Assembly (NCBI GenBank): GCA_029945665.1
Contig: JAQSCZ010000008.1
Location: 1-56,525 of the forward strand
DNA: 56,525 nt
Reading direction: 5' to 3'
DNA from: a bacterium
Lineage (GTDB): Bacteria; Bacteroidota; Bacteroidia; NS11-12g; UBA955
The notes below the pieces were generated by a model that was not told the DNA's origin, did not search any database, and saw only the letters and a list, made by a program, of their open reading frames with translations. Shown here in pieces: positions 13,904-26,053 of the stretch. A program made the position numbers and the translations under genes. Numbering within the stretch: the first letter of the stretch is position 1; every line of letters starts with the position of its first letter.

Positions 13904-16900
13904 TTATCGGAGGATCATTATATTTCCTTTTTCCTCATGTCTCAGATCGTCTGATCCAACAAATTCGAGTCGATAGAAATATATACCTTGTTCAACATAT
14001 TCGCCACCGAATGAACCGTCCCAACCTAATTGAGGATTATCAGTTTTAAATAACATTTCGCCCCAACGATCGAAGATAATAAATTTATAAGATTGAGCGT
14101 AGGCAAGTCCACGTGGTTTAAAGAAGTCGTTAATTTGATCATCGTTACCCGGTGAGAAAGCGTTTGGCATATAGTAAATTACATCTGGTGCAATAAATAA
14201 ACTTTCTTGAGCAGTATCTTTACAACCAAATACATTGGTTACAATAAGAGTTGTATATTGGGTAACGGTATCGGTATATAGTATCAAAGGATTTTGATTG
14301 CTGGAAGTTCCCATTGCTCCAAAATTCCATAACCAACTAATGGCGTCTCTTGATGAATCGATGTATTGAATATCCACTTCATTTTCCCAAGATCTTAATT
14401 TTTGGTATATGAATTTAGCCACTGGGTTAGGATTTACAACTGCGTAATTTGTTTTCACTAAAGTATCAAGACATCCTTTGTCAGTTAACACAGATAAGGT
14501 AACCGTAAATTGACCGGTTTTTTTGTATTTGTGTTTAGGTGATTGCAAATCTGAAGTGGTTTTGCCATCGCCAAAAGTCCATTTATAAGAGGCAATAAAG
14601 CCTGGGTTGATTGTAGAATTATTGATAAATATTGAAGAGTCTTTTAAACATACATCTGATGTTGTGAAATCAAGTGTTGGGTTTGGATCGACAGATACCA
14701 ATGCGCTTGCAGTATCCCAGCAGCCATAATTTGTAATGACGCGATGTAAAATAGGGAAGACGCCATCGGTCTTATAGTTGTAAACAGGCGGATTTGCGGA
14801 TGTTAGCAACACAGCAGAATCACCATTACCATAATAATATTGGTATTTAGCAATTACACCATTGGTTATTTTTGATTTGCTTACGATAATAAACGCATTC
14901 TTTTTAAAACAACTTTCTTTTGGGTTGATTGTAAAATCTGCTACCGGCATTGGACGTAGATATACTTTGGCCGTATCTGCAGCAGAACAATTATTGTCGC
15001 TTAGCAAAGTCATGATAACGCGAAATGAATCTACCTTAATATAAGAATGGGAGGCAGTCAAGCCTGTTGCAGTTGTTAAGTCACCGAAGCTCCAATTCGT
15101 TGAATTAATAGTGCCGGAATTAATATTAGAGGTTGAGGTAAAGTTGAAATTATTATTCAAGTAGCATTGTTCATTGTTGTCAATGGTAAACGACGGGATT
15201 GGCATTGGATAAACAACAACTCCTTTAGTGGTAGTGTCTTTGCAATTGCCTGTTTGAGTAGAAGTTACCAATGTTACTGTATAATTTCCTTCAGTTAAGT
15301 ATGAATAATTAGGGTTTTTAATATTTGCTGTGTCATTTGTTTGGGTTGTTACACCAAAATCCCAGAAATAGTTCATGCTGCTGTTGTTGCTTACTGTAGA
15401 ATTGGCGAGAAAATCGAAAACATTGCCTTTTAAACAACTGCTTAAAATAGTTGCATTGTATGAAGAAACAGGCATTGGGTAAACGCGTGCATCCTTAATG
15501 ATTGTGTCAGTACAATTGTTGTTAGAAGTGGTAATTAATCTCACCTTATATAAGGCTGGATTAATATAACTGTGTGAAGTTGTTGCGACATTGCCATCAA
15601 CATTGCCATCACCAAAATTCCAGCCATAAGAATAGGTGCCGTACTTAATGGTTGTACTTGCTATGAAATTAAAGTTATTACTCAACTTACATTGCTTATC
15701 GTTGTTAATTGTAAAGTTGCTTTTTGGTTTCGGATATACTGTGACTGTTTTTGTTAAGGTGTCCGAACAAGAATGGTCACTGAAGGCAACATTCGTAACT
15801 GTGTAAGTAGAATCTTTGGTGTATTTTTTAGAGACCGCTGTAAATAAATTCGAGAAAGTTCCGTCTCCAAATAACCACTTATTGGTGAAATTTCCTGTCG
15901 AAATAAAAGTATTCGTAGAGAAAATAAAATTGTTGCTATTTACGCACTGGCCTGGGGTGTTTATAGTAAAATCAGTGTTAGGGTGGGGGTAGACATTGAT
16001 AATTGTAAATGCTGTATCTGAGCATCCGTTGTCGCCATATATTAGCAATGACATATTGTAATCACCTTCTGCTAAATATTGATGATTCACAAGTGGATTG
16101 TTAATATCTGTATTTCCATCTCCGAATCTCCATTCGTTGCTTGTAATAGTTCCTGTGGCAAAAATTGAATTATCTGTGAAAGTGAACAAATTATTTCTAA
16201 AACATTGCGAGCCGTTATTGATCGAGAAAGAGGGTTGAGGCATCGCGAGTACTTTTAAGGTGTCAACAATTGAATCCTTGCAATTTAAGTTGGATACCAA
16301 TAATAATTTGGCTGCATAATTACCTACCGTTGCAATTTTAGTTTGAATACTATCTACGCCATTAAAATTTTGTCCATCAGAAATTGACCAAGATCTTGTA
16401 TAGGTTCCAGAATTAATAGAGGAAGTTGATTTTAATTTAAATAAATTAATTTTCAAACACTGGGTATTGCTATTGGTTGTAAATGAAGCAATAGGAGATG
16501 GTTTAACGATGGAAGTCGTTTTAATACTATCTCGACAGCCCTTATTGCTAATGGCTTTTACTTCAATGCTGAAAGTGCCATCTGTTGCATAGCTATGCGA
16601 AACCGAATCACTATTGGTAGCAGTTCCGCCGTCACCAAAAGTCCAATTATGGGAAACAGTGCCAGTAGCGATGACTGATTTAGCCTTGAACCTAAATAAA
16701 TTGCCATCTGCGCACAAGGTATTGTCAAAATTAGTTATTGTCACTTTCGGCATAGGGTTCACTAAAATCTTTTGAAAAGTCGTGTCGCTGCAAGCATCTG
16801 CGCCATCATCAGTCGTTGTAATTAATTGAATGGTTCTGTTGCCTTGTGTTTTGTAGGTGTAATGAATAGAGTCTTTTAAAAGGAATTCTTTTCCAGCATC

Positions 16901-17926
16901 TATCACCCAATCATTAAGTAAAGGCAGACCATTGCTAACTGTTGAACCTGATTCGAAAACAAACTGATTGTTTATAATACATTGGTCAGTATCATTGGTT
17001 GTTATTTGGGCTATAGGATGAGGACTTACTGATAAAAAGAAATCTCCAGTATCGATACAGCCATTCGCTAATTGGTTAATTTGACTGACATAATAAAAAT
17101 TAGCAGTTGAATATTTGTGTTGTGTTGAATCGACATTTGAAACCATGGCGCTACCATCGCCAAAGAGCCAATTGGCATATAAAAACGGACTTGTAAAAGA
17201 ATAGGAGATTGATTTAAATTTAAATAAATTACCTCGCAAACATTGCACATCATCATTAATTTCAGTTTCAATATTGGGCATTTCTTTTACATTGACTTGT
17301 CTCTTGAAAATATCAGTACAACCTTTATCCGAAATGGCTTTTAATTCAGTATTGAAAAATGTGTTATAGAATTTATATCTGTGAGAAATTGTTGAAGTTG
17401 AAAGTGTATCATTGTTAGAGCCATCGGTCCAATTCCAAACATATTTTGTTATAGCACCAGCACTAATAGTCGATGTAGAAGTAAAATTATAGGTGTGATA
17501 TTTGTAACATTGGCTATCATTTGGAAAGGTAAAGGAAGGAAAAGGCTTGGGGAATACTGTTAGGGAAGAGTCTGACAAGTAACAAGTGTGCGCAGGAGCA
17601 GTTGATGTAACTCTAATCTTATAACCGGAACCTGGCAAGGTTGTCAACGGCATTTCATAGGTCAATCCTTTTGGTATTGTGTCTGTATAACTAGTTAAAT
17701 TGGTAGGCGATGCAAACGAACCAGCCGCATCTGATAATTGAATGGTAAAAACATTGCCACTGCTAAAGTAAACACCAGACTTGGTTATACTAACTTTCAG
17801 GGTATCTCCTGGGCAGATTTTTGAAGGCGTGAAAGTTATCTTCATATTGGCTGCAACACAAGGTTGAGCCTCTGTCTTATGGATGAAAGCAACAGTTAAA
17901 AATAGGAATAGTAAGGATCTTATCAT
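13904..17926 (-). CDS. Giant PKD-repeat surface protein with CHU_C (type B) T9SS sorting domain
   Basis: About 1340 residues: signal peptide (FLTVAFIHKTEAQ), an N-terminal domain, then about 12 PKD-like repeats of roughly 90 residues. Each starts with a Cys-containing strand such as NGSQCFRNNLFTF, contains the PKD core WxFGDG, and ends with a second Cys (GCSDTAFTI), so each repeat probably holds one disulfide. The last 85 residues form the gliding-motility C-terminal domain (PNAFSPGNDD, FIIFDRWGEMLFKT, GIYFYRLEF), the signal that sends the protein through T9SS to the surface. It is probably an adhesin or filament-like surface protein. I start at the ATG at 17926; the TTG three codons upstream is less likely. 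Confidence 0.93.
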   Translation of the reverse strand: MIRSLLFLFLTVAFIHKTEAQPCVAANMKITFTPSKICPGDTLKVSITKSGVYFSSGNVFTIQLSDAAGSFASPTNLTSYTDTIPKGLTYEMPLTTLPGSGYKIRVTSTAPAHTCYLSDSSLTVFPKPFPSFTFPNDSQCYKYHTYNFTSTSTISAGAITKYVWNWTDGSNNDTLSTSTISHRYKFYNTFFNTELKAISDKGCTDIFKRQVNVKEMPNIETEINDDVQCLRGNLFKFKSISYSFTSPFLYANWLFGDGSAMVSNVDSTQHKYSTANFYYVSQINQLANGCIDTGDFFLSVSPHPIAQITTNDTDQCIINNQFVFESGSTVSNGLPLLNDWVIDAGKEFLLKDSIHYTYKTQGNRTIQLITTTDDGADACSDTTFQKILVNPMPKVTITNFDNTLCADGNLFRFKAKSVIATGTVSHNWTFGDGGTATNSDSVSHSYATDGTFSIEVKAISNKGCRDSIKTTSIVKPSPIASFTTNSNTQCLKINLFKLKSTSSINSGTYTRSWSISDGQNFNGVDSIQTKIATVGNYAAKLLLVSNLNCKDSIVDTLKVLAMPQPSFSINNGSQCFRNNLFTFTDNSIFATGTITSNEWRFGDGNTDINNPLVNHQYLAEGDYNMSLLIYGDNGCSDTAFTIINVYPHPNTDFTINTPGQCVNSNNFIFSTNTFISTGNFTNKWLFGDGTFSNLFTAVSKKYTKDSTYTVTNVAFSDHSCSDTLTKTVTVYPKPKSNFTINNDKQCKLSNNFNFIASTTIKYGTYSYGWNFGDGNVDGNVATTSHSYINPALYKVRLITTSNNNCTDTIIKDARVYPMPVSSYNATILSSCLKGNVFDFLANSTVSNNSSMNYFWDFGVTTQTNDTANIKNPNYSYLTEGNYTVTLVTSTQTGNCKDTTTKGVVVYPMPIPSFTIDNNEQCYLNNNFNFTSTSNINSGTINSTNWSFGDLTTATGLTASHSYIKVDSFRVIMTLLSDNNCSAADTAKVYLRPMPVADFTINPKESCFKKNAFIIVSKSKITNGVIAKYQYYYGNGDSAVLLTSANPPVYNYKTDGVFPILHRVITNYGCWDTASALVSVDPNPTLDFTTSDVCLKDSSIFINNSTINPGFIASYKWTFGDGKTTSDLQSPKHKYKKTGQFTVTLSVLTDKGCLDTLVKTNYAVVNPNPVAKFIYQKLRSWENEVDIQYIDSSRDAISWLWNFGAMGTSSNQNPLILYTDTVTQYTTLIVTNVFGCKDTAQESLFIAPDVIYYMPNAFSPGNDDQINDFFKPRGLAYAQSYKFIIFDRWGEMLFKTDNPQLGWDGSFGGEYVEQGIYFYRLEFVGSDDLRHEEKGNIMILR

Positions 17927-17998
17927 CTTATGCAATTGTTAATGTTAAAATAATCTACGAATATACAGCAAAAAATGATAAATACAAACCTGCTTGGG

Positions 17999-19330
17999 CT
18001 ACCAAAGTTGAGTATTATCAAAGTTCCCCGAACTCATAAGTAACAAGACACGGTGTTGTCCTGAAACGTTGCCTTTGAAATTATTTATTTTTGCAATTAA
18101 TTCAGAAGTATTGTTAATGGCCTCAATATCAGAGTGAAAGCCTTTCGTTACTTGGTCAAGGGTGAGAATAGGCATTTTCTTGTGTTCGAACACCAGTGGG
18201 TTGAAATATACAATGGCTTTATCTGCCAATTCCATGGTGTCTTGGTAATGTGGTAAAAAATCTTGGCTGAGACTGCTAAAGGTATGTAATTCAAACACCG
18301 CCATTAATTCAGAATCGGGGTACTGTTGCCTAACTGCTTCAACTGTTGCCTTTAATTTACTTGGGGAATGTGCAAAGTCACGGAATATTAAAAGGTGATC
18401 GTTTTCAAATACTTTTTCTAATCTGCGCGCGCTTCCAGTAAATGAAGCCATTGCTTGATAAAATTCGGTTTGAGTAATATTAATATTTTCACAAAGCAGT
18501 GAGGCTCCTTCCATGTTTTGTAAATTGTGTTCGCCAAAAACCGCTAGCGGATAAGCTCTGTCTTTTAAAACAGTTACTACACCGTTATTATTTTCGTATT
18601 TTGGGGTATCATAAGCCCGAGCTTTTACCTGCGCTTTTTCGCAAAGCGCTTTGAGCACTTTGTCGTCATTGAAATAAACTAATTCGCCATCTTTTTCAAT
18701 GGTATCAATATATTGGGCAAATTGGTCAACATAATTTTCAAAAGTTGGAAAGACATTGATATGGTCCCAAGCAATCCCTGTTATTTGGGTATAATGTGGC
18801 TTGTATTTAATAAATTTCGGAACCCTGTCGAGTGCCGAAGTTAGATACTCATCTCCTTCTATAACCATGATGGGCGCATCGCTAAATTTTACCATGGTGT
18901 CAAATCCTTCGAGTTGCGAACCTACTAAATAATCGAAATCTTTATGCAAGGTTTTTAATACATGCATAATCATGGCTGTCGTCGAGGTTTTACCATGACT
19001 GCCAGCAATTACAACCCGTATTTTGTTTTTAGCATGCTCGTAAACATATTCGGGAAAACTATATACTTTAATGCCTAAACTTTTGGCTTTCTCTAACTCA
19101 GGATTATCTGCTTTTGCGTGCATGCCAAGGATTATAAAATCTAATGCCTTTGTTATTTTTTCAGGGTGCCAACCAAAACTTTCGGGTAAAATGCCATGCG
19201 ATTTTAAACGTGATAGGGCCGGTTCGAAAATTTCATCATCACTGCCAGAAATAGTGTGTCCAAGCTGATGTAAAGCGATGGCCATATTGTGCATAACCGC
19301 ACCCCCACAAGCCAGAATGTGAATTTTCAT
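17999..19330 (-). CDS. mpl: UDP-N-acetylmuramate:murein tripeptide ligase (Mpl-like)
   Basis: The 443-residue Mur-ligase family enzyme re-uses recovered L-Ala-gamma-D-Glu-meso-DAP by joining it to UDP-MurNAc in the cytoplasm (peptidoglycan recycling). It begins with the Rossmann-type UDP-binding domain (IHILACGGAVMHNMA), then the ATP loop AGSHGKTSTTAM, the central domain with VIEGDEYLTSALDR, and the C-terminal domain with FRDFAHSPSKLKATVEA. The gap between ATP loop and C-terminal domain fits Mpl rather than MurC length, and the ATG at 19330 (MKIHILACGG) is chosen over the TTG 7 codons upstream. Confidence 0.9.
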   Translation of the reverse strand: MKIHILACGGAVMHNMAIALHQLGHTISGSDDEIFEPALSRLKSHGILPESFGWHPEKITKALDFIILGMHAKADNPELEKAKSLGIKVYSFPEYVYEHAKNKIRVVIAGSHGKTSTTAMIMHVLKTLHKDFDYLVGSQLEGFDTMVKFSDAPIMVIEGDEYLTSALDRVPKFIKYKPHYTQITGIAWDHINVFPTFENYVDQFAQYIDTIEKDGELVYFNDDKVLKALCEKAQVKARAYDTPKYENNNGVVTVLKDRAYPLAVFGEHNLQNMEGASLLCENINITQTEFYQAMASFTGSARRLEKVFENDHLLIFRDFAHSPSKLKATVEAVRQQYPDSELMAVFELHTFSSLSQDFLPHYQDTMELADKAIVYFNPLVFEHKKMPILTLDQVTKGFHSDIEAINNTSELIAKINNFKGNVSGQHRVLLLMSSGNFDNTQLW

Positions 19331-19410
19331 TGCGTAAGAATTGTGATGCAAAAAACGAACAATTAAAGCATAAGTGAAAACTTATTTATACCAACTTTGT
19401 AAAATCAATT

Positions 19411-20574
19411 TTAGTTAAGTTTCATGTAGAAATTTAATCCTGAATTAACTGCCGTTGGATGCTTGAAAATGGTGTAAAGATCTTGCAGTATTAAATCAGG
19501 CCGGCCAACGCCATACTCCCAAAATGCATTGCCTCCATATTGGTTTTCCTGCTTGTTATTGTTGAACAACTGACCAGTTTTAAAGGCTTTAAAAAGATTG
19601 TAACGGGTATCTGCTTGCAGAATCTCACTGCGCGAAGCAAATTGATTCATGTGAATCCATATATCTGCATCTTTGGCTTCTTGTAATACATTCTCTAAAC
19701 TTTTGGGATATGTAAATAAGGGTTGTAAGGATTTGAAGCAATAGGAACCTCCTGCATCTTCAATTAATTGTGCCGTATAACTTCCTCCACCTGGAACGAA
19801 CCAAGTATCTCCGAACATGGCTTCTGATAGTATTTTGGGTGCAGCCTTGCCTTGCGCAAGCAAAGCCTCCCTATGTTTTTGAGAATTGAAAGCTATCAAA
19901 TTGTAATTGTTTTTGACTTGCTCGAAAATACTGTCAGCCAAACTTAAATGTCCTGTTAGAGCTCCGAAAAACTTTATCCATTCGGCACGTGCTAATGGAT
20001 GTGCTTCTTTAAAATTATCGCAATAAATTACTTTTATTCCCATTTTTTCTAGGCGTTTGCCATTAGCCGATTCAATGAAGTTTGCGCCATTGCAAATGAC
20101 AATGTCTGGCTTTAATGATAGTACTTTTTCAAGTTGCAATTGCGACTCTTCTCCAACCTCCAACGTTTGCTTTGCGTTGAATTGATTGATGAGTATACTA
20201 TCTGAATAAAAATGAAAATTATCTACTCCAATTATATTAGATTGTTGCTTAAGTAACTCTAAAAACCCTGCAAAAACTGTTGAAAGTACTATGATTGTAG
20301 GTGTTTTTGTAGTTTTTTCAAAGGTGTAACTCCACAGTGTGTCTGTCTTGTTGATGTTCAGTAATTGGATGGTTTTATCAGATTCTATAAGTCCAAATTG
20401 TTTGGAATATTCTATTTTGTGAAATTGATTTACAGTGTTACGTGTCTTATTTTTTCGACTAAAATTACAAGCCGTTAAAGCCAACAGAACGAAAATAAGT
20501 AGTAAACTAGGTTGACTATATTTTACAGCTTGATTATTATTAAAAAGAGATTTAAATTTCGTAACTTTTCTCAT
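19411..20574 (-). CDS. Periplasmic metal/cobalamin-binding lipoprotein, BtuF-like
   Basis: The 387-residue lipoprotein (LTACN lipobox near residue 36) is a class III substrate-binding protein: two lobes joined by a long helix, with TIIVLSTVFAGFLELLKQ and LEKVLSLKPDIVICNGA, the usual layout of BtuF/FhuD proteins. It would hand cobalamin from the periplasm to an ABC permease. Its place as last gene of a riboswitch-controlled TonB-receptor operon makes cobalamin the best substrate. The matching permease and ATPase (BtuCD) are not in the window. Its start overlaps the CWC gene by 4 nt (ATGA). Confidence 0.85.
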   Translation of the reverse strand: MRKVTKFKSLFNNNQAVKYSQPSLLLIFVLLALTACNFSRKNKTRNTVNQFHKIEYSKQFGLIESDKTIQLLNINKTDTLWSYTFEKTTKTPTIIVLSTVFAGFLELLKQQSNIIGVDNFHFYSDSILINQFNAKQTLEVGEESQLQLEKVLSLKPDIVICNGANFIESANGKRLEKMGIKVIYCDNFKEAHPLARAEWIKFFGALTGHLSLADSIFEQVKNNYNLIAFNSQKHREALLAQGKAAPKILSEAMFGDTWFVPGGGSYTAQLIEDAGGSYCFKSLQPLFTYPKSLENVLQEAKDADIWIHMNQFASRSEILQADTRYNLFKAFKTGQLFNNNKQENQYGGNAFWEYGVGRPDLILQDLYTIFKHPTAVNSGLNFYMKLN

Positions 20575-20759
20575 GCTGTAATTACTTTGTTATTGCTTAT
20601 TTTAACCAAACAAATATTGCAAATACAATCACTGTAGTTCTCCGCTATTTGGCCTTTTTGAATGTTTGTTAGTGAAATTTCGTAACATTGACACTGATAT
20701 ATATTATCGACATTACATTCAAAAATTTGGTGGCAAATTGGACATTCTTTTTTTTGCAT
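20571..20759 (-). CDS. Cysteine-rich CWC-family miniprotein in the B12 operon
   Basis: Sixty-two residues, with nine cysteines arranged as CPIC, FEC, QCQC, DCIC and ICL, the pattern of the cysteine-rich CWC family, a probable zinc ribbon of unknown function. It has no signal peptide, so it is likely cytoplasmic. Both neighbours are tight: 4 nt after the beta-propeller gene, and 4 nt overlapping the BtuF-like gene, so it is translated as part of the cobalamin operon. Whether it acts in cobalamin handling, metal sensing or something unrelated is unknown. Confidence 0.8.
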   Translation of the reverse strand: MQKKECPICHQIFECNVDNIYQCQCYEISLTNIQKGQIAENYSDCICNICLVKISNNKVITA

Positions 20760-20763
20760 TAAA

Positions 20764-21801
20764 TCAGGGTTTGAAATAAAAATCGTTAGGCGAAATACCA
20801 GCTTTAAATGAATTGATTAAAATACCATTCGGTTGATATCTATATACCACCCCTTTTTGGACAAAATCAATGGCGTCAGAAACGTAAATTGTACTTGCAG
20901 ATGGATCGATTCCTAAGCCATAAAATATAGTCTTGTTTTCAGGAATTAGCGGTGTACTATTTAATTGATTGGCCGAAATGGGTAATTGATAAAGACCACT
21001 GTTTAAATAATACAAAGTGTCATTGCTTCCATTGATTTTTAAACGCCAAGGTTGCTCATCTTTATTTTTAAAAGTAAAGGTTGTAATAACACTATCTGAA
21101 TTGGTGTTTATAGTCTGTAGCGTTGCTAGTTCAGTGTTGTTGTCGCCATTTGCCAATACCCATAATCGGTCGAATTTATCGAGTTTTATAGAGTTGGCAC
21201 CATAGCCAATTTTGATACTGTCTTGGATCTGGTCATTAGATGGATTGATGATGTATAAGTAACGACTGCTTTTATTGCAAACATATACTTTGCCATGGGT
21301 CAAATAGAGTTCTTCGGTCCACCCTTGGCATTTAATTTTATTGGTAACTTTGTTGGTATTCAAATCAATCACCGAAATACTGTTTGAATTATAGTCTGTT
21401 ACATACGCTTTTTGAATACTTACTGGTAAAAAATATCGGGGCGATCCGAGGCCAGTAATTGTTCCAATAGATGCGAAGGAATTTGGATTTACAATTTCAA
21501 TTTTATCGGAGTTATTTACGACTATATAGAGTTTATTATTTATGAAATAAAATGATTGACAGATATCTCCTAAAGGGCGTTTGTTTGCACTTTTGAATAA
21601 TTCATCTGCATAGGATTGGTCGTTAGGATTATAAAAGCCTAGGTCCGCATTGCCAAATTGAAAAGTGCCTTCATTGCTAATAAAAACACCTGAAGCGTTG
21701 CTGTTAAAAATGGTGTTGGCAGTTGAAGGCTTGTCTTTTTTACAAGCTGTAAATGATAATAGAGTAAGCACAAATATGCCACAAAAACTAATTTTATTCA
21801 T
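20764..21801 (-). CDS. Surface beta-propeller lipoprotein, BtuG-like (YVTN/DUF5074 type)
   Basis: The 345-residue protein has a lipobox with a charged tail after the cysteine (FTACKKDKPS), a pattern linked to surface exposure in Bacteroidota. The body is a seven-blade YVTN-type propeller, with repeats such as NKLYIVVNNSDKIEIVNP, KAYVTDYNSNSISVIDLN and GKVYVCNKSSRYLYIINP at about 40-residue intervals. In gut Bacteroides, BtuG propeller lipoproteins cap the BtuB receptor and bind B12 very tightly. The riboswitch-controlled context makes the same role likely here. It overlaps the previous gene by 8 nt. Confidence 0.87.
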   Translation of the reverse strand: MNKISFCGIFVLTLLSFTACKKDKPSTANTIFNSNASGVFISNEGTFQFGNADLGFYNPNDQSYADELFKSANKRPLGDICQSFYFINNKLYIVVNNSDKIEIVNPNSFASIGTITGLGSPRYFLPVSIQKAYVTDYNSNSISVIDLNTNKVTNKIKCQGWTEELYLTHGKVYVCNKSSRYLYIINPSNDQIQDSIKIGYGANSIKLDKFDRLWVLANGDNNTELATLQTINTNSDSVITTFTFKNKDEQPWRLKINGSNDTLYYLNSGLYQLPISANQLNSTPLIPENKTIFYGLGIDPSASTIYVSDAIDFVQKGVVYRYQPNGILINSFKAGISPNDFYFKP

Positions 21802-22795
21802 GGGCTATTATTAATTTCAAACAGCGGCTTTGTTCTCCATTTGTAATGGTGATTTGATAGCAGCCAGTGGCGTAGTTGGATAAATCGAGCCACACAGTTT
21901 GTTTGCCTAAACCAAAATAAAAAGTATTCCTATAAACTGTGCGACCTGTTATATCTGTCATTTGAAGATCAGTATTTAATTCACTTTTATTCTCGAATTC
22001 TACCTTGCAACTTGTATTGGCGGGGTTTGGGAATAATACAATATTGTTTGCAATGTTAATCGGTTTAATATTGCTATTGGTTGGATACATAATGCCTACT
22101 CCATCCAAATCAAACCCAGAGGAAGGAAAGGGAGTCGGCCAGGGGTCATTGATTTTATGATTGTATTGGTCGAAGGTTGCATATTGATTGGCTATACTTC
22201 CAACGACGTCAATAATTTTTATATGTGTAATCGCGTTGAAATCAATAGAACCAAAGCTGTCTAACTCAGATAGATCAAATGGAGTACCCCACATGGCCTT
22301 GTATTTGCCTGCAAGGTTATTGATTTTACGAGGATTTGTATAGCCAAAAGGTCCCGTTTGAATTGTATCTTGAGTTAATGATGTGGGTTTGAAACGCACA
22401 TAATTGACACCATCTGAGCTCACTTCAACAAAGGCTAATTCTAGGAATGAATCAATGAATGTATTTTCGAAAATTGCAAAATCTGGACCTGGTCCGTTTT
22501 TAATTGGTTGATTAAATAAAACGATTGCCACACCACCATCGCCTAAACTTACTATGCCATTAGCTCCTGCTTTTCCAATAGCCATGCTGCTATCCCCAAC
22601 TGTAGCGAAGCCGGAATTACTATTCGAAATATCTTGATAACCACGGATTACACTGCATTGTGTAGCCCAAGCTTTAAATATTGAACTGTCTTTATGCAGG
22701 GCACTAGAGCCCGCTTGGCCTGCAGCTGGCGAAAATTGCGACCACAAAATATGGCTATTGCAGAGGAATAAAATAAGTAATGGCAGCAGTCTCAT
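21794..22795 (-). CDS. T9SS-secreted surface protein of the B12 operon
   Basis: The 333-residue protein has a signal peptide (LLILFLCNSHILWSQ), a globular domain of about 220 residues, and a type A T9SS sorting domain at the end (IVLFPNPANTSCKVEF, DITGRTVYRN). The core contains SLGDGGVAIVLFNQPI, DFAIFENTF, FVEVSSDGVNYVRF and GFDLDGVGIMY, a jelly-roll-like domain that I have seen only as uncharacterised cell-surface proteins. Its place between DUF4465 and the propeller (1-nt and 8-nt overlaps) suggests it helps bind or hand over cobalamin at the cell surface. Function is inferred from context only. Confidence 0.85.
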   Translation of the reverse strand: MRLLPLLILFLCNSHILWSQFSPAAGQAGSSALHKDSSIFKAWATQCSVIRGYQDISNSNSGFATVGDSSMAIGKAGANGIVSLGDGGVAIVLFNQPIKNGPGPDFAIFENTFIDSFLELAFVEVSSDGVNYVRFKPTSLTQDTIQTGPFGYTNPRKINNLAGKYKAMWGTPFDLSELDSFGSIDFNAITHIKIIDVVGSIANQYATFDQYNHKINDPWPTPFPSSGFDLDGVGIMYPTNSNIKPINIANNIVLFPNPANTSCKVEFENKSELNTDLQMTDITGRTVYRNTFYFGLGKQTVWLDLSNYATGCYQITITNGEQSRCLKLIIAHE

Positions 22796-23775
22796 TATTG
22801 TTTAATGAAAGTTTGTATACTAATGGTTTGGTTGATTGTTGTCTTTACAAAATACAAACCTTTGGTCCATTCTGAAACATCGATTTTGTGATGGCTTAGG
22901 CTGCTGTTAAAAGTTTTGATGGTGCGACCAGTTATATCTGAAATATTAATTTCTGCCATTTCGTTTTTCTTGTTTTGGCATTCTAAAGTTAAAAAATCAA
23001 TAGCAGGGTTTGGATACAAAATTGAAGACAAGGTTAAATTTTTAGCAATGTTTAAACCTGGATATGTTGACGTGAAATTATCAATACAGAAAAAGCCGGG
23101 TGTATTCATGCCGAATTGACCGTTGTCGCTTGATACCAATTCAAATGTTAAACTATCTACATTGCCTAGAGAAGTAAGGTTGACCCAACGCCAATCTTTT
23201 ACAATATAATCTTTGGTGTCGTCGTCTGAGCGATAGTCCGCTAAATAAAAAACAACACTGTCGTTGGATAGAGTCCCATTGAGATATTTTCGGATAATTA
23301 ATTTAAAAAAGTCTTTATCAGTGCCAGTTACACCGCCAAATTTTTTGCTTATAAAATCACCATCTTCTAAAGAATAGGTAGCATAAGTTGAATTGGTAAT
23401 GTATAATCCTTCTACAACTTTACCCAAGGCATTGCCATTTAATTTTATCATGCTATTTTGTTGGCCTACCAGGTAGTTATTGGATCCATTGTATCCTACT
23501 CCCGGGCGAGCGCTATATAGGTTATTATAGTCGGGTGTAATCGTATCGGTCATATTCGAATAAGCCCATCCGCCTGTCCAATATCCACCGTATGAAGTGT
23601 CGAAATAATTTTTAAATTCAGCAAGCCCGTTTGTAAAAGTAGTGCCAAGTGGTGTTTCGGATCCATTCCAAAATGAGTCTTTTGCGAGTGTTAATGACTC
23701 AAAAGTTGAAATCGTTTGAGCTTTTGAAGATAGAGTTGCTAATAAGCAAAATGAGATAAGTAGAGCGTTTTTCAT
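22795..23775 (-). CDS. DUF4465 protein with T9SS sorting domain
   Basis: The 326-residue protein has a signal peptide (LLATLSSKAQ), a DUF4465 domain (about 22-240) and a type A T9SS sorting domain (SILYPNPAIDFLTLECQ, DITGRTIKTF). DUF4465 marks are FESLTLAKDSFWNG, YWTGGWAYSNMTD and FFCIDNFTS. Members are often found beside cobalamin receptors, and I recall that some gut Bacteroides B12-binding lipoproteins belong near this family. Here the anchor is T9SS, not a lipid. It follows the receptor gene by 22 bp and overlaps the next gene by 1 nt. Confidence 0.87.
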   Translation of the reverse strand: MKNALLISFCLLATLSSKAQTISTFESLTLAKDSFWNGSETPLGTTFTNGLAEFKNYFDTSYGGYWTGGWAYSNMTDTITPDYNNLYSARPGVGYNGSNNYLVGQQNSMIKLNGNALGKVVEGLYITNSTYATYSLEDGDFISKKFGGVTGTDKDFFKLIIRKYLNGTLSNDSVVFYLADYRSDDDTKDYIVKDWRWVNLTSLGNVDSLTFELVSSDNGQFGMNTPGFFCIDNFTSTYPGLNIAKNLTLSSILYPNPAIDFLTLECQNKKNEMAEINISDITGRTIKTFNSSLSHHKIDVSEWTKGLYFVKTTINQTISIQTFIKQ

Positions 23776-23797
23776 TTGAAAATATAAATTATGATTG

Positions 23798-25717
23798 TTA
23801 TTTTTGATTGATTTCTAAGGATAGACCAACTGCAAAATTGCGCAGAGGCATGGCACGATTTTGCATTATTTGGTATTCCGTATTCCAAACATTATTGATT
23901 TGAAAAAAAGCGGCGGTTTGCCATTTTTTATAATGCATTTTGTATGAACAATAAACGGCGCCCAATTGGAATGGAGCAAGGTACTCGGTATTGTCAGAAC
24001 TTGTATAGCGATAGCCTGTATAACTATGCTTATAAGTAGCATTGAATTTTTTATATTCAATGTTTAATTTTGCATGACCGCTATACATTGGTACATAAAT
24101 AAGTTGTTTGTTTAAAGATGCATCTTCATTAGAGATGGTATTTTGATTAGTAGATACAACATAGTTGGTAAGTACTGAAAAACTGAATTTGATTTTATGT
24201 AATTTTAAAGCGAACGTAGAATTGGTTTCAATACCGCGACTCCATACTTTCATGATGTTTTCTGGATGCCAATAATTGCCATTGGGCAGCCAGATTATCC
24301 AATTGTTAATTTGCTTGTTGAATGCCGTATATTCACTTGTATATTGCCAGCGACTTGTGTTGGATTTCGCTTGGAACATAACACCCAAATCTTGTGTGAA
24401 ACCATTTTCATGTAAAAGATTAGGATTGCCGCCTGGATTCCAAAACCAATCATTGAAAGTGGGCAGTCGATAAACTCGCGAGGCATTGGCTTTTAGCTTT
24501 ATATTTTTGTTGAGTTTATAATTGGTTCCTATCGAATATACCAATGGAACATTGCGGTGCGAAATAAATTCTTTTCGAAGGGATAAGGTTGAAATTAGTT
24601 TGCCATTTAAGTTTGTAAAACCATAGGCGGCAAAAAATGCCAGTCTATTCAGACTTGGATTGTTTGTATATCCATCTGCTAAAGCTGTTGCATAGGTATT
24701 GTTAATTCCAAGGTTAAGGGTATGTTGTTTGTTAAATGCAATTTTGGTTTCCGATTCACTAATAAAAGTGCGCGAACGGTTGTTGCTTTTTATCGTTTGA
24801 TCTTCGTATTGCAAAGCCTCGTCAAAATAAGCAGCCCGGACCGATGTGTTAATTTTGTTTTTTTGTAAACGCCATTCAGAAGTAAGGCGGATACTCTCAT
24901 CCTTTTGTTTTGAAACACTGCTTTTTTGAAGCATGGTTGGGGGTAAGTTGCGATCTGTTTGTTGCACCCATAGCATCAGATTTATACTTTGATTTTTTGA
25001 AATCAAAAAATGGTTTTCGTTTAAAAAACCTTGGGTCGTAATTTCAGCATTTGATTGTGTGCTTTTTGTTTTTTCGCCACTGTAAATATTCTTGTATTGG
25101 AAGTCGTTTTTAGCGTTCGATTGAAATATTTTTATTGATGAAATAAATCGTTTACGACTTATTTGAAATGCGGCTTGTTTACTAAAGCTGCCGAAACTGC
25201 CTCCACTTAAATTAAGTTTTATATTTACACCTTTGTTGTAACTCGCTAAGTTGTTAAGGTGCACTGCTCCGCCCATTGCGCCACTTCCCCAAAGCGCGCT
25301 GCTGCCGCCATATTGGATAGATACAGCATCGCAAAAGTTAACAGGGATGAGTGATAGGTCAATTTGACCATTCATAGGGCTGTTAATATTAAAGCCATTC
25401 CAAAGCACTGCTGTTTGGCTGGCGCTTCCTCCACGAAAAGAGGCTGAGGCCAATGAATTTAGTCCATACGATTTAACAAATAAGGCACTTTCTTCAGATA
25501 GTAAATCGCCTAAATTTCTGAAACGATGTTGTGATAAAGTAAGACTATCAAAACTGTTAATTTTACTACCAGCCGAAAAATGATTAAGTCGATTAGAATT
25601 TATAACCACTCCTTTGAAAGCATAAATAGTATCAGTCAATACAGATTGAGCGATAAGCGTATTGCAAATTAACATGGCAATAACTGTAGCGATTTGTAGG
25701 TGATACTTCAATTTCAT
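23798..25717 (-). CDS. btuB: TonB-dependent cobalamin receptor (BtuB-like)
   Basis: The 639-residue outer-membrane receptor has a signal peptide (MLICNTLIAQ), a TonB-box-like stretch, then a plug domain (about 40-160) with LGDLLSEESALFVKSYG, SFRGGSASQTAVLWNG and YGGSSALWGSGAMGG, and a 22-strand-type barrel that ends in an aromatic-rich C-terminus (NFAVGLSLEINQK). Receptors of this size with a short plug are typical for cobalamin. The cobalamin riboswitch just upstream, on the same strand, supports that substrate directly. It is the first gene of the operon and uses TonB/ExbBD energy from the inner membrane. Confidence 0.92.
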   Translation of the reverse strand: MKLKYHLQIATVIAMLICNTLIAQSVLTDTIYAFKGVVINSNRLNHFSAGSKINSFDSLTLSQHRFRNLGDLLSEESALFVKSYGLNSLASASFRGGSASQTAVLWNGFNINSPMNGQIDLSLIPVNFCDAVSIQYGGSSALWGSGAMGGAVHLNNLASYNKGVNIKLNLSGGSFGSFSKQAAFQISRKRFISSIKIFQSNAKNDFQYKNIYSGEKTKSTQSNAEITTQGFLNENHFLISKNQSINLMLWVQQTDRNLPPTMLQKSSVSKQKDESIRLTSEWRLQKNKINTSVRAAYFDEALQYEDQTIKSNNRSRTFISESETKIAFNKQHTLNLGINNTYATALADGYTNNPSLNRLAFFAAYGFTNLNGKLISTLSLRKEFISHRNVPLVYSIGTNYKLNKNIKLKANASRVYRLPTFNDWFWNPGGNPNLLHENGFTQDLGVMFQAKSNTSRWQYTSEYTAFNKQINNWIIWLPNGNYWHPENIMKVWSRGIETNSTFALKLHKIKFSFSVLTNYVVSTNQNTISNEDASLNKQLIYVPMYSGHAKLNIEYKKFNATYKHSYTGYRYTSSDNTEYLAPFQLGAVYCSYKMHYKKWQTAAFFQINNVWNTEYQIMQNRAMPLRNFAVGLSLEINQK

Positions 25718-25754
25718 TTTTTTTCATTTTTTAGCGCCAAAAGAAGAAAATAAT

Positions 25755-25791
25755 GAAACTTAGAGAACATGGATTTTAACCCATAAGTTTC
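25755..25791 (-). terminator. Attenuator-like hairpin between riboswitch and btuB
   Basis: On the minus strand GAAACTTA (25791-25784) pairs with TAAGTTTC (25762-25755), an 8-bp perfect stem, with inner pairing possible, followed by a U-rich run (ATTATTTTCTTCTTTT). This fits an intrinsic terminator controlled by the riboswitch above it. A switch at translation cannot be ruled out from sequence. Confidence 0.6.
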
Positions 25792-25821
25792 AAGCGGCTT
25801 TCTTCCCGAAGCACTGAATGA

Positions 25822-26006
25822 TAGTGTTGATTTTGGCAGGTCTTCTGACTTACCCCATATTCTGATACCTTCCCATCAGCTTTCAGCTGACAGTGGTTAT
25901 TAATTTTCAGACTATTACTGCCAACTTACATTGGCAATGGGGCTTACAGCATCGGGAAATGTCAAGGATTTACACCTTGTTCCCTTTTAATTTAGTTTTT
26001 ACACTA
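25822..26006 (-). promoter_or_regulatory. Cobalamin riboswitch
   Basis: The minus-strand RNA has the landmarks of the adenosylcobalamin aptamer: a B12-box region (AACCACTG at 25898-25891), the conserved AGTCAGAAGACCTGCC (25850-25835) near its 3' side, and a candidate P1 stem, TAGTGT (26006-26001) with ACACTA (25827-25822). It lies 105 nt upstream of the TonB receptor start in the same direction. High cobalamin should shut the operon off. The total length (about 185 nt) is normal for the class. Confidence 0.92.
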
Positions 26007-26022
26007 AAACCATAATCGGGAG

Positions 26023-26053
26023 CAAACCTAGTGAAAACTTTTTTATCTTGCAA
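26023..26053 (-). promoter_or_regulatory. Promoter of the cobalamin operon
   Basis: Minus strand: -33 TTG (26053-26051), a 20-bp spacer, then -7 TAGGTTTG (26030-26023). This matches the Bacteroidota consensus and places the transcript start just before the riboswitch P1 stem. Confidence 0.75.

Follow-up and report, generated by a model that had tools for sequence, protein, structure and literature searches.

A cobalamin riboswitch operon from the Bacteroidota encoding two proteins with type IX secretion tails, one of them a predicted remote relative of BtuH

The closest described counterparts of the locus considered here are the cobalamin (vitamin B12) uptake proteins of Bacteroides thetaiotaomicron, in which the receptor BtuB and its partner BtuG are reported to form BtuBG complexes (PMC10404256). 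Two further proteins are relevant. BtuH has been described as an accessory of gut Bacteroidetes whose B12-binding domain, in the terms of that report, is without known structural homologues (PMC8941943). BtuJ belongs to the DUF4465 family (PF14717, IPR027828; PDB: 9FCT, 9HMU), for distant members of which, including one from Fluviicola taffensis, B12 binding has been demonstrated (PMC13398666). In B. thetaiotaomicron, riboswitch reporters are reported to be shut down by B12 (PMC12751083), and in Flavobacterium psychrophilum a cobalamin riboswitch has been described upstream of a TonB-dependent transporter gene. Here we analyze a stretch of 56,525 nucleotides from a bacterium of the NS11-12g lineage (contig JAQSCZ010000008.1 of assembly GCA_029945665.1), referred to as the window, whose numbering is used for all coordinates. 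On its minus strand, from 26029 to 19411, one cobalamin riboswitch is followed by six closely packed genes of the same strand, encoding BtuB, a BtuJ-like member of the DUF4465 family, a second protein designated protein 2, BtuG, a small Cys_rich_CWC protein and a BtuF-like binding protein. We consider it probable that this is a B12 salvage operon in which BtuJ and the BtuH-related protein 2, both exported by the type IX secretion system (T9SS), would act as B12 catchers that feed BtuG-BtuB, with BtuF and a distantly encoded ATP-binding cassette (ABC) pair completing the import.

Protein 2 and the BtuH superfamily

The initial annotation described protein 2 as uncharacterized, which the assignment given below now replaces. 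No Pfam or NCBIfam model scores above its cut-off over the first 240 residues. A PDB search with the single sequence returned nothing at E values up to 5, and only profile searches revealed the homology. Relatives were collected by scanning 395 genomes of the phylum, 218 of which match protein 2. Since most of the matches listed involve the T9SS tail only, tail-only rows were dropped, and the 38 loci that match the core among the matches listed were taken. An alignment of 33 rows, comprising the window protein and 32 of the 38 relatives (L046, L047, L052, L061, L062 and L065 were left out), includes 21 invariant positions around the motif D-F-x-x-F-E-N-x-F and F-D motifs; the alignment made by script takes in all 38 relatives. 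When the tail-free profile was searched against the PDB at E values up to 10, two matches were obtained, the H-domain of BtuG1 (8blw_B; E value 6.4e-7) and BtuH2 (7biz_A; E value 0.0098), and apart from T9SS tails BtuH domains are the only PDB matches of the sequence profile. Other BtuH sequences confirm this result. A profile built from 17 of 18 BtuH loci (L207 was left out) aligns with the protein 2 profile by hhalign over 101 columns with 95.6% probability (E value 1.3e-8), as against 0.1–3.4% for ten column shuffles and 0.6% for BtuJ, which served as controls.

Residues N111 and F113 of protein 2, invariant in the 33 sequences, correspond in the alignment to the Asn and the Phe within the sequence G-N-A-F in 7BIZ. 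This Asn is at chain position 299, and an inferred offset of 100 would make the two residues Asn399 and Phe401 of BtuH2, which are reported to contact the phosphate and the lower ligand of B12 (PMC8941943). The third nucleotide-loop contact of BtuH2 is given in the same report as Gln333. The offset does place a Gln at 333, which matches the consensus of the protein 2 family, although not cleanly the window protein itself.

The AlphaFold model of full-length protein 2 has a mean predicted local distance difference score (pLDDT) of 92.0 and a predicted template modelling score (pTM) of 0.71. Because the structure lists obtained with this model were crowded by immunoglobulin-like folds that correspond to the T9SS tail, a separate model was made of the core (pLDDT 93.6, pTM 0.92). 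The top 1000 chains returned by Foldseek for the core were re-aligned, 983 of them with success, and B12-bound BtuH2 ranks first (7biz_A; Z 12.2, root-mean-square deviation 3.7, 160 residues aligned). It is followed by the H-domain of BtuG1 (Z 10.8) and then by CBM32 modules from Z 9.4 downward. With the full-length model, the H-domain of BtuG1 comes first (Z 11.7). Based on profile comparison and modelled structure, protein 2 is a predicted member of the BtuH fold and superfamily, as a remote homologue of BtuH2 of B. thetaiotaomicron (7BIZ) and of the H-domain of BtuG1/BtuGH (8BLW), and like them it is found in riboswitch-controlled btuB loci. The lipoprotein anchor and the PKD or propeller domains of those proteins are, in contrast, replaced by a T9SS tail of type A. 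As protein 2 carries this tail and its signal peptide has no lipobox (judged by eye), it is named a BtuH-like variant and not BtuH proper. We found no account of a T9SS-borne BtuH-like protein among the open-licence papers searched.

Several observations weigh against the proposal that this homology extends to B12 capture. The chief reservation concerns the fold of BtuH, which resembles the common discoidin/CBM32 fold. Foldseek with the core ranks an F5/8C domain first and 7biz_B second (E value 4e-3), with no match at an E value of 1e-3 or below, so that part of the structural signal is that of the common discoidin-like fold; with the full-length model, no BtuH is among the 50 rows listed. 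In addition, the BtuH domain exceeds protein 2 in length by about 55 residues. The alignment by sequence is limited to the N-terminal half of protein 2, in which no counterparts could be assigned to the residues that BtuH2 uses on the corrin side (His476, Tyr510, Trp511 and Trp577). A correspondence to BtuK (BT_1486/1487) might also be considered. The protein might instead be a scaffold or adhesin of the B12 system with a CBM32/discoidin fold, which binds surface glycans or a partner and not B12. Domains of the CBM32/discoidin type do make up most of the structural rows from rank 3 down, and BtuL and BtuK2, two lipoproteins of B12 operons in B. thetaiotaomicron, are reported not to bind B12 (PMC12751083). 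Against this are the exclusive sequence match to BtuH domains, the lead of 1.4–2.8 Z units that these domains have over the first CBM32 row, the invariance of the Asn and Phe at positions of B12 contacts, and the existence of units consisting of a riboswitch and protein 2 without BtuB. We regard the scaffold as unlikely, and retain B12 capture as the predicted role.

The two T9SS sorting domains proposed in the initial annotation are borne out. Protein 2 and the DUF4465 protein score 50.6 and 55.0 bits, respectively, with PF18962 (cut-off 27), and 38.1 and 45.2 bits with TIGR04183 (cut-off 23). The presence of the secretion system itself was judged from one component, SprA, which is encoded in the genome (SprA_N in a frame of 2460 residues).

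Occurrence of protein 2 in other genomes

Among the 38 relatives' loci, a cobalamin riboswitch is present in 24 and BtuB (E value below 1e-100) in 21. The 14 loci in which no riboswitch reaches the gathering score, some of them on short contigs, count against the proposal. A wider set consists of the best 80 of 495 candidate stretches, from titled genomes that are nearly all of Bacteroidota; 77 of the 80 rows were kept in the structure alignment (L118, L166 and L170 were left out on account of stops or frame). In these 80 loci, the neighbours of protein 2 include BtuB (51), BtuG (49), BtuJ (29), CWC (9) and BtuF (8), and one locus (L102) has the exact gene order of the window. By script, a T9SS tail is found on protein 2 in 70 of the 80 loci; the TIGR04183 tail is present in 24 of the 33 alignment members. 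BtuH proper occurs in 11 of the 395 genomes of the phylum and in none of the 38 with fetched protein 2 loci, numbers that are too small to claim mutual exclusion.

Within the stretches retrieved, a BtuB match is lacking in 29 of these best 80 loci, several of which are on short contigs. The riboswitch scan covered eight of the 29. In five (L124, L137, L139, L140 and L173), a riboswitch on the same strand ends 60–84 bases before the protein 2 match, and in L135 it is farther upstream, with an open reading frame of 154 residues between. The other two (L103 and L111) have none at the gathering score, some contigs again being short, and likewise weigh against the proposal.

In the order to which the window genome belongs, protein 2 is encoded in 77 of 108 genomes, with one copy in each, and a DUF4465 protein also in 77. 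Both are present in 71 genomes, one alone in 12 and neither in 25 (p = 1.6e-13 for co-occurrence, uncorrected for relatedness). Of the 17 genomes of the window genus, 5 encode both proteins and 12 encode neither. Adjacency was counted for 41 of these 71 genomes: the two genes are within 3 kb in 26, and in 15 they are on different contigs or more than 3 kb apart, where it should be considered that adjoining genes may end up on separate contigs in a draft assembly. These separations, together with the frequency of protein 2 loci without BtuB, would suit a variant of the scheme in which both T9SS proteins are released as free "cobalophores" that return B12 to cells carrying BtuBG. This variant overlaps with the favoured explanation and has a parallel in BtuJ of B. 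thetaiotaomicron, as vesicles bearing BtuJ are reported to deliver B12 (PMC12751083). Free release would, however, also feed competitors. Moreover, T9SS cargo of type A is usually attached to the surface lipopolysaccharide. We therefore consider release possible but rather less than probable, and favour capture by proteins attached to the cell surface.

The same distribution allows a broader proposal, to which the lipoprotein LIC_13355 of Leptospira (NF033170) is pertinent. Every one of the 33 sequences aligned for protein 2 matches NF033170 at E values up to 0.1 (best 2e-12). In the window protein and in L044, L045, L049, L057, L069 and L071, which were looked at singly, the match covers model positions 97–160, and the matched segment holds the central motif of the protein 2 family. 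Taken singly, these proteins score 19–39 bits against a cut-off of 120; no match was found in the two BtuH relatives looked at. LIC_13355 has been described as an adhesin, a lipoprotein that binds laminin and plasminogen (PMC11891782). Only tentatively, then, do we suggest that protein 2 founds a large unnamed family of BtuH-like, T9SS-borne B12-capture proteins across Bacteroidota, which may be independent of BtuB under a riboswitch of its own, act in trans on shared BtuBG and extend to LIC_13355. Two members of the protein 2 family match DUF5522.

The remaining genes of the operon

The protein encoded next to BtuB contains a DUF4465 domain (PF14717, E value 1.9e-47, above the cut-off) and matches the solved DUF4465 structures 9hmu (E value 3.2e-22) and 9fct (E value 2.2e-21) in a PDB sequence search. 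It shares with BtuJ this domain, the Tyr motif of the DE-helix and a location in a B12 operon, and differs from it by having a T9SS tail and not a lipid anchor. A further difference is in the HI-loop, where Tyr is replaced with Phe in the window protein (MNTPGFF). The HI-loop Tyr has been reported as conserved in 97% of DUF4465 homologues (PMC13398666), and in the DUF4465 papers it is called universal or 97% conserved (PMC13398666, PMC12751083). In 30 rows, consisting of the window protein and the 29 DUF4465 neighbours of protein 2, the residue is Phe in 17, Tyr in 12 and Leu in one. The BtuJ of the window does not have the conserved HI-loop Tyr, which counts against the proposed scheme; its membership of the domain family stands.

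By script, 28 of the 29 DUF4465 neighbours have a T9SS tail. The initial annotation had treated such proteins as new, and this part of the claim falls, because a 2025 report already describes DUF4465 proteins that end in domains for extracellular targeting, with IPR026444 on 229 of 824 sequences (PMC12751083). The assembly contains one DUF4465 gene. In genomes of family f57 (e.g., L208 and L216), two DUF4465 matches are located within a single open reading frame of about 550 residues. IPR026444 is presumably the T9SS tail.

BtuB is a TonB-dependent receptor which in the PDB sequence search is closest to Bacteroides BtuB (8p98; E value 1.2e-61); its best NCBIfam model is TIGR01779, at 62.9 bits and below the cut-off of 599.7. 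BtuG, whose gene is close to that of BtuB, is a DUF5074 propeller protein with a lipobox (by eye) and matches 8bmx_D (E value 1.5e-59). Clear homologues of both partners of the Bacteroides BtuB-BtuG complex (8P98, 8BMX) are encoded together, with the T9SS proteins as proposed additional partners. The BtuF-like protein has no PDB sequence match at E values up to 0.01 and scores 16.5 bits on the BtuF family model (cut-off 234). Inside the operon there is also a CWC protein (Table 1), a type recurring near protein 2 as noted above; in the 33-row alignment, the rows L051 and L070 have a Cys-rich stretch in frame upstream of protein 2 (by eye).

Table 1. Features of the cobalamin operon, in order of transcription
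Feature	Position	Strand	Evidence
Cobalamin riboswitch aptamer	25818..26029	-	RF00174, 99.6 bits (gathering score 31.5), E value 9.8e-24, model positions 1-189 of 189
Leader from the aptamer to the start of BtuB	25718..25817	-	Long hairpin possible (computed folding)
BtuB, TonB-dependent B12 receptor, 639 aa	23798..25717	-	Plug and barrel domains; 8p98 match
DUF4465 protein (BtuJ type), type A T9SS tail, 326 aa	22795..23775	-	PF14717, PF18962, TIGR04183
Protein 2, predicted remote BtuH fold (residues ~21-241), type A T9SS tail (residues 254-330), 333 aa	21794..22795	-	Profile, AlphaFold, tail models
BtuG, DUF5074 beta-propeller lipoprotein, 345 aa	20764..21801	-	8bmx_D match; lipobox FTAC by eye
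Cys_rich_CWC small protein, 62 aa	20571..20759	-	PF14375, E value 3.7e-10
BtuF-like periplasmic binding protein, 387 aa	19411..20574	-	PF01497, E value 2.2e-15; lipobox LTAC by eye

The riboswitch match is the sole one to RF00174 in the whole assembly, and the junctions between the genes range from a spacer of 22 bases to an overlap of 8 bases. The initially annotated riboswitch and six tightly packed genes are confirmed, and the reading as a cobalamin uptake operon in which two T9SS cargo proteins accompany a BtuG lipoprotein is supported. The single promoter is not confirmed: when a promoter consensus of the Bacteroidota type was used for scanning, one near-match was found upstream of the riboswitch as against 42 on the same strand of the window. 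The segment 25700–25860 has a folding energy of -36.4 kcal/mol (z -2.63; 2 of 200 shuffles are equally or more stable), and the leader hairpin is a possible expression platform. Elsewhere in the window, a repeat protein of 1343 residues (13904–17935), the end of which resembles a C-terminal domain of the gliding type (by eye), adjoins a Mur ligase gene (17999–19351).

Permease, proposed route of B12 and significance

The assembly comprises 3.79 Mb in 126 contigs and is 98.8% complete. The permease, stated to be absent in the initial annotation, is indeed absent from the operon; elsewhere in the genome, where a search for BtuCD had been suggested, one FecCD permease was found, on contig C3, with an ABC ATPase gene directly after it. 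As it is the only FecCD permease and adjoins an ATPase, this pair is most likely the "missing" permease. The scores do not single out B12, however, since the permease scores alike on the FhuB and BtuC models and below both cut-offs (170.6 bits on BtuC, cut-off 334), which is a further point against the scheme. There are two Peripla_BP_2 proteins in the genome, the BtuF-like protein of the operon and one on contig C40. Given that Peripla_BP_2 and FecCD proteins also transport siderophores, the operon might be dedicated to a different ligand, for instance a siderophore or haem, and its riboswitch be a chance acquisition. The riboswitch, BtuB/BtuG and DUF4465 nevertheless all indicate B12, and similar layouts recur, which makes another ligand highly improbable.

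Among the proteins with a B12-binding domain, MetH and a C-terminal subunit of methylmalonyl-CoA mutase score above the cut-offs of their models, and an IcmF-like part and a CarH-like regulator are below theirs. CobS was not found in the genome, which as a single marker fits a B12 scavenger.

We propose that B12 would repress the operon via the riboswitch, and that under B12 shortage BtuB and its BtuG lid would be made as the import pore. BtuJ and the BtuH-like protein 2 would leave the cell via the T9SS without being lipid-anchored and, at the cell surface, trap scarce B12, as is predicted for protein 2. The trapped B12 would be handed to BtuG-BtuB, and BtuF with the ABC permease and ATPase encoded elsewhere would complete the import, supplying MetH and the mutases. 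The initial annotation saw in this a different solution from that of gut Bacteroides. The export route does differ, but the parts are of the same kinds, BtuJ and BtuH.

The capture modules would be separable from their anchor, which is a lipid in B. thetaiotaomicron and a T9SS tail here. If protein 2 does bind B12, capture of the BtuH type would be common to Bacteroidota in general, also outside the gut, with delivery by another export route. A testable function could then be given to many genes (at least 495 candidate stretches).

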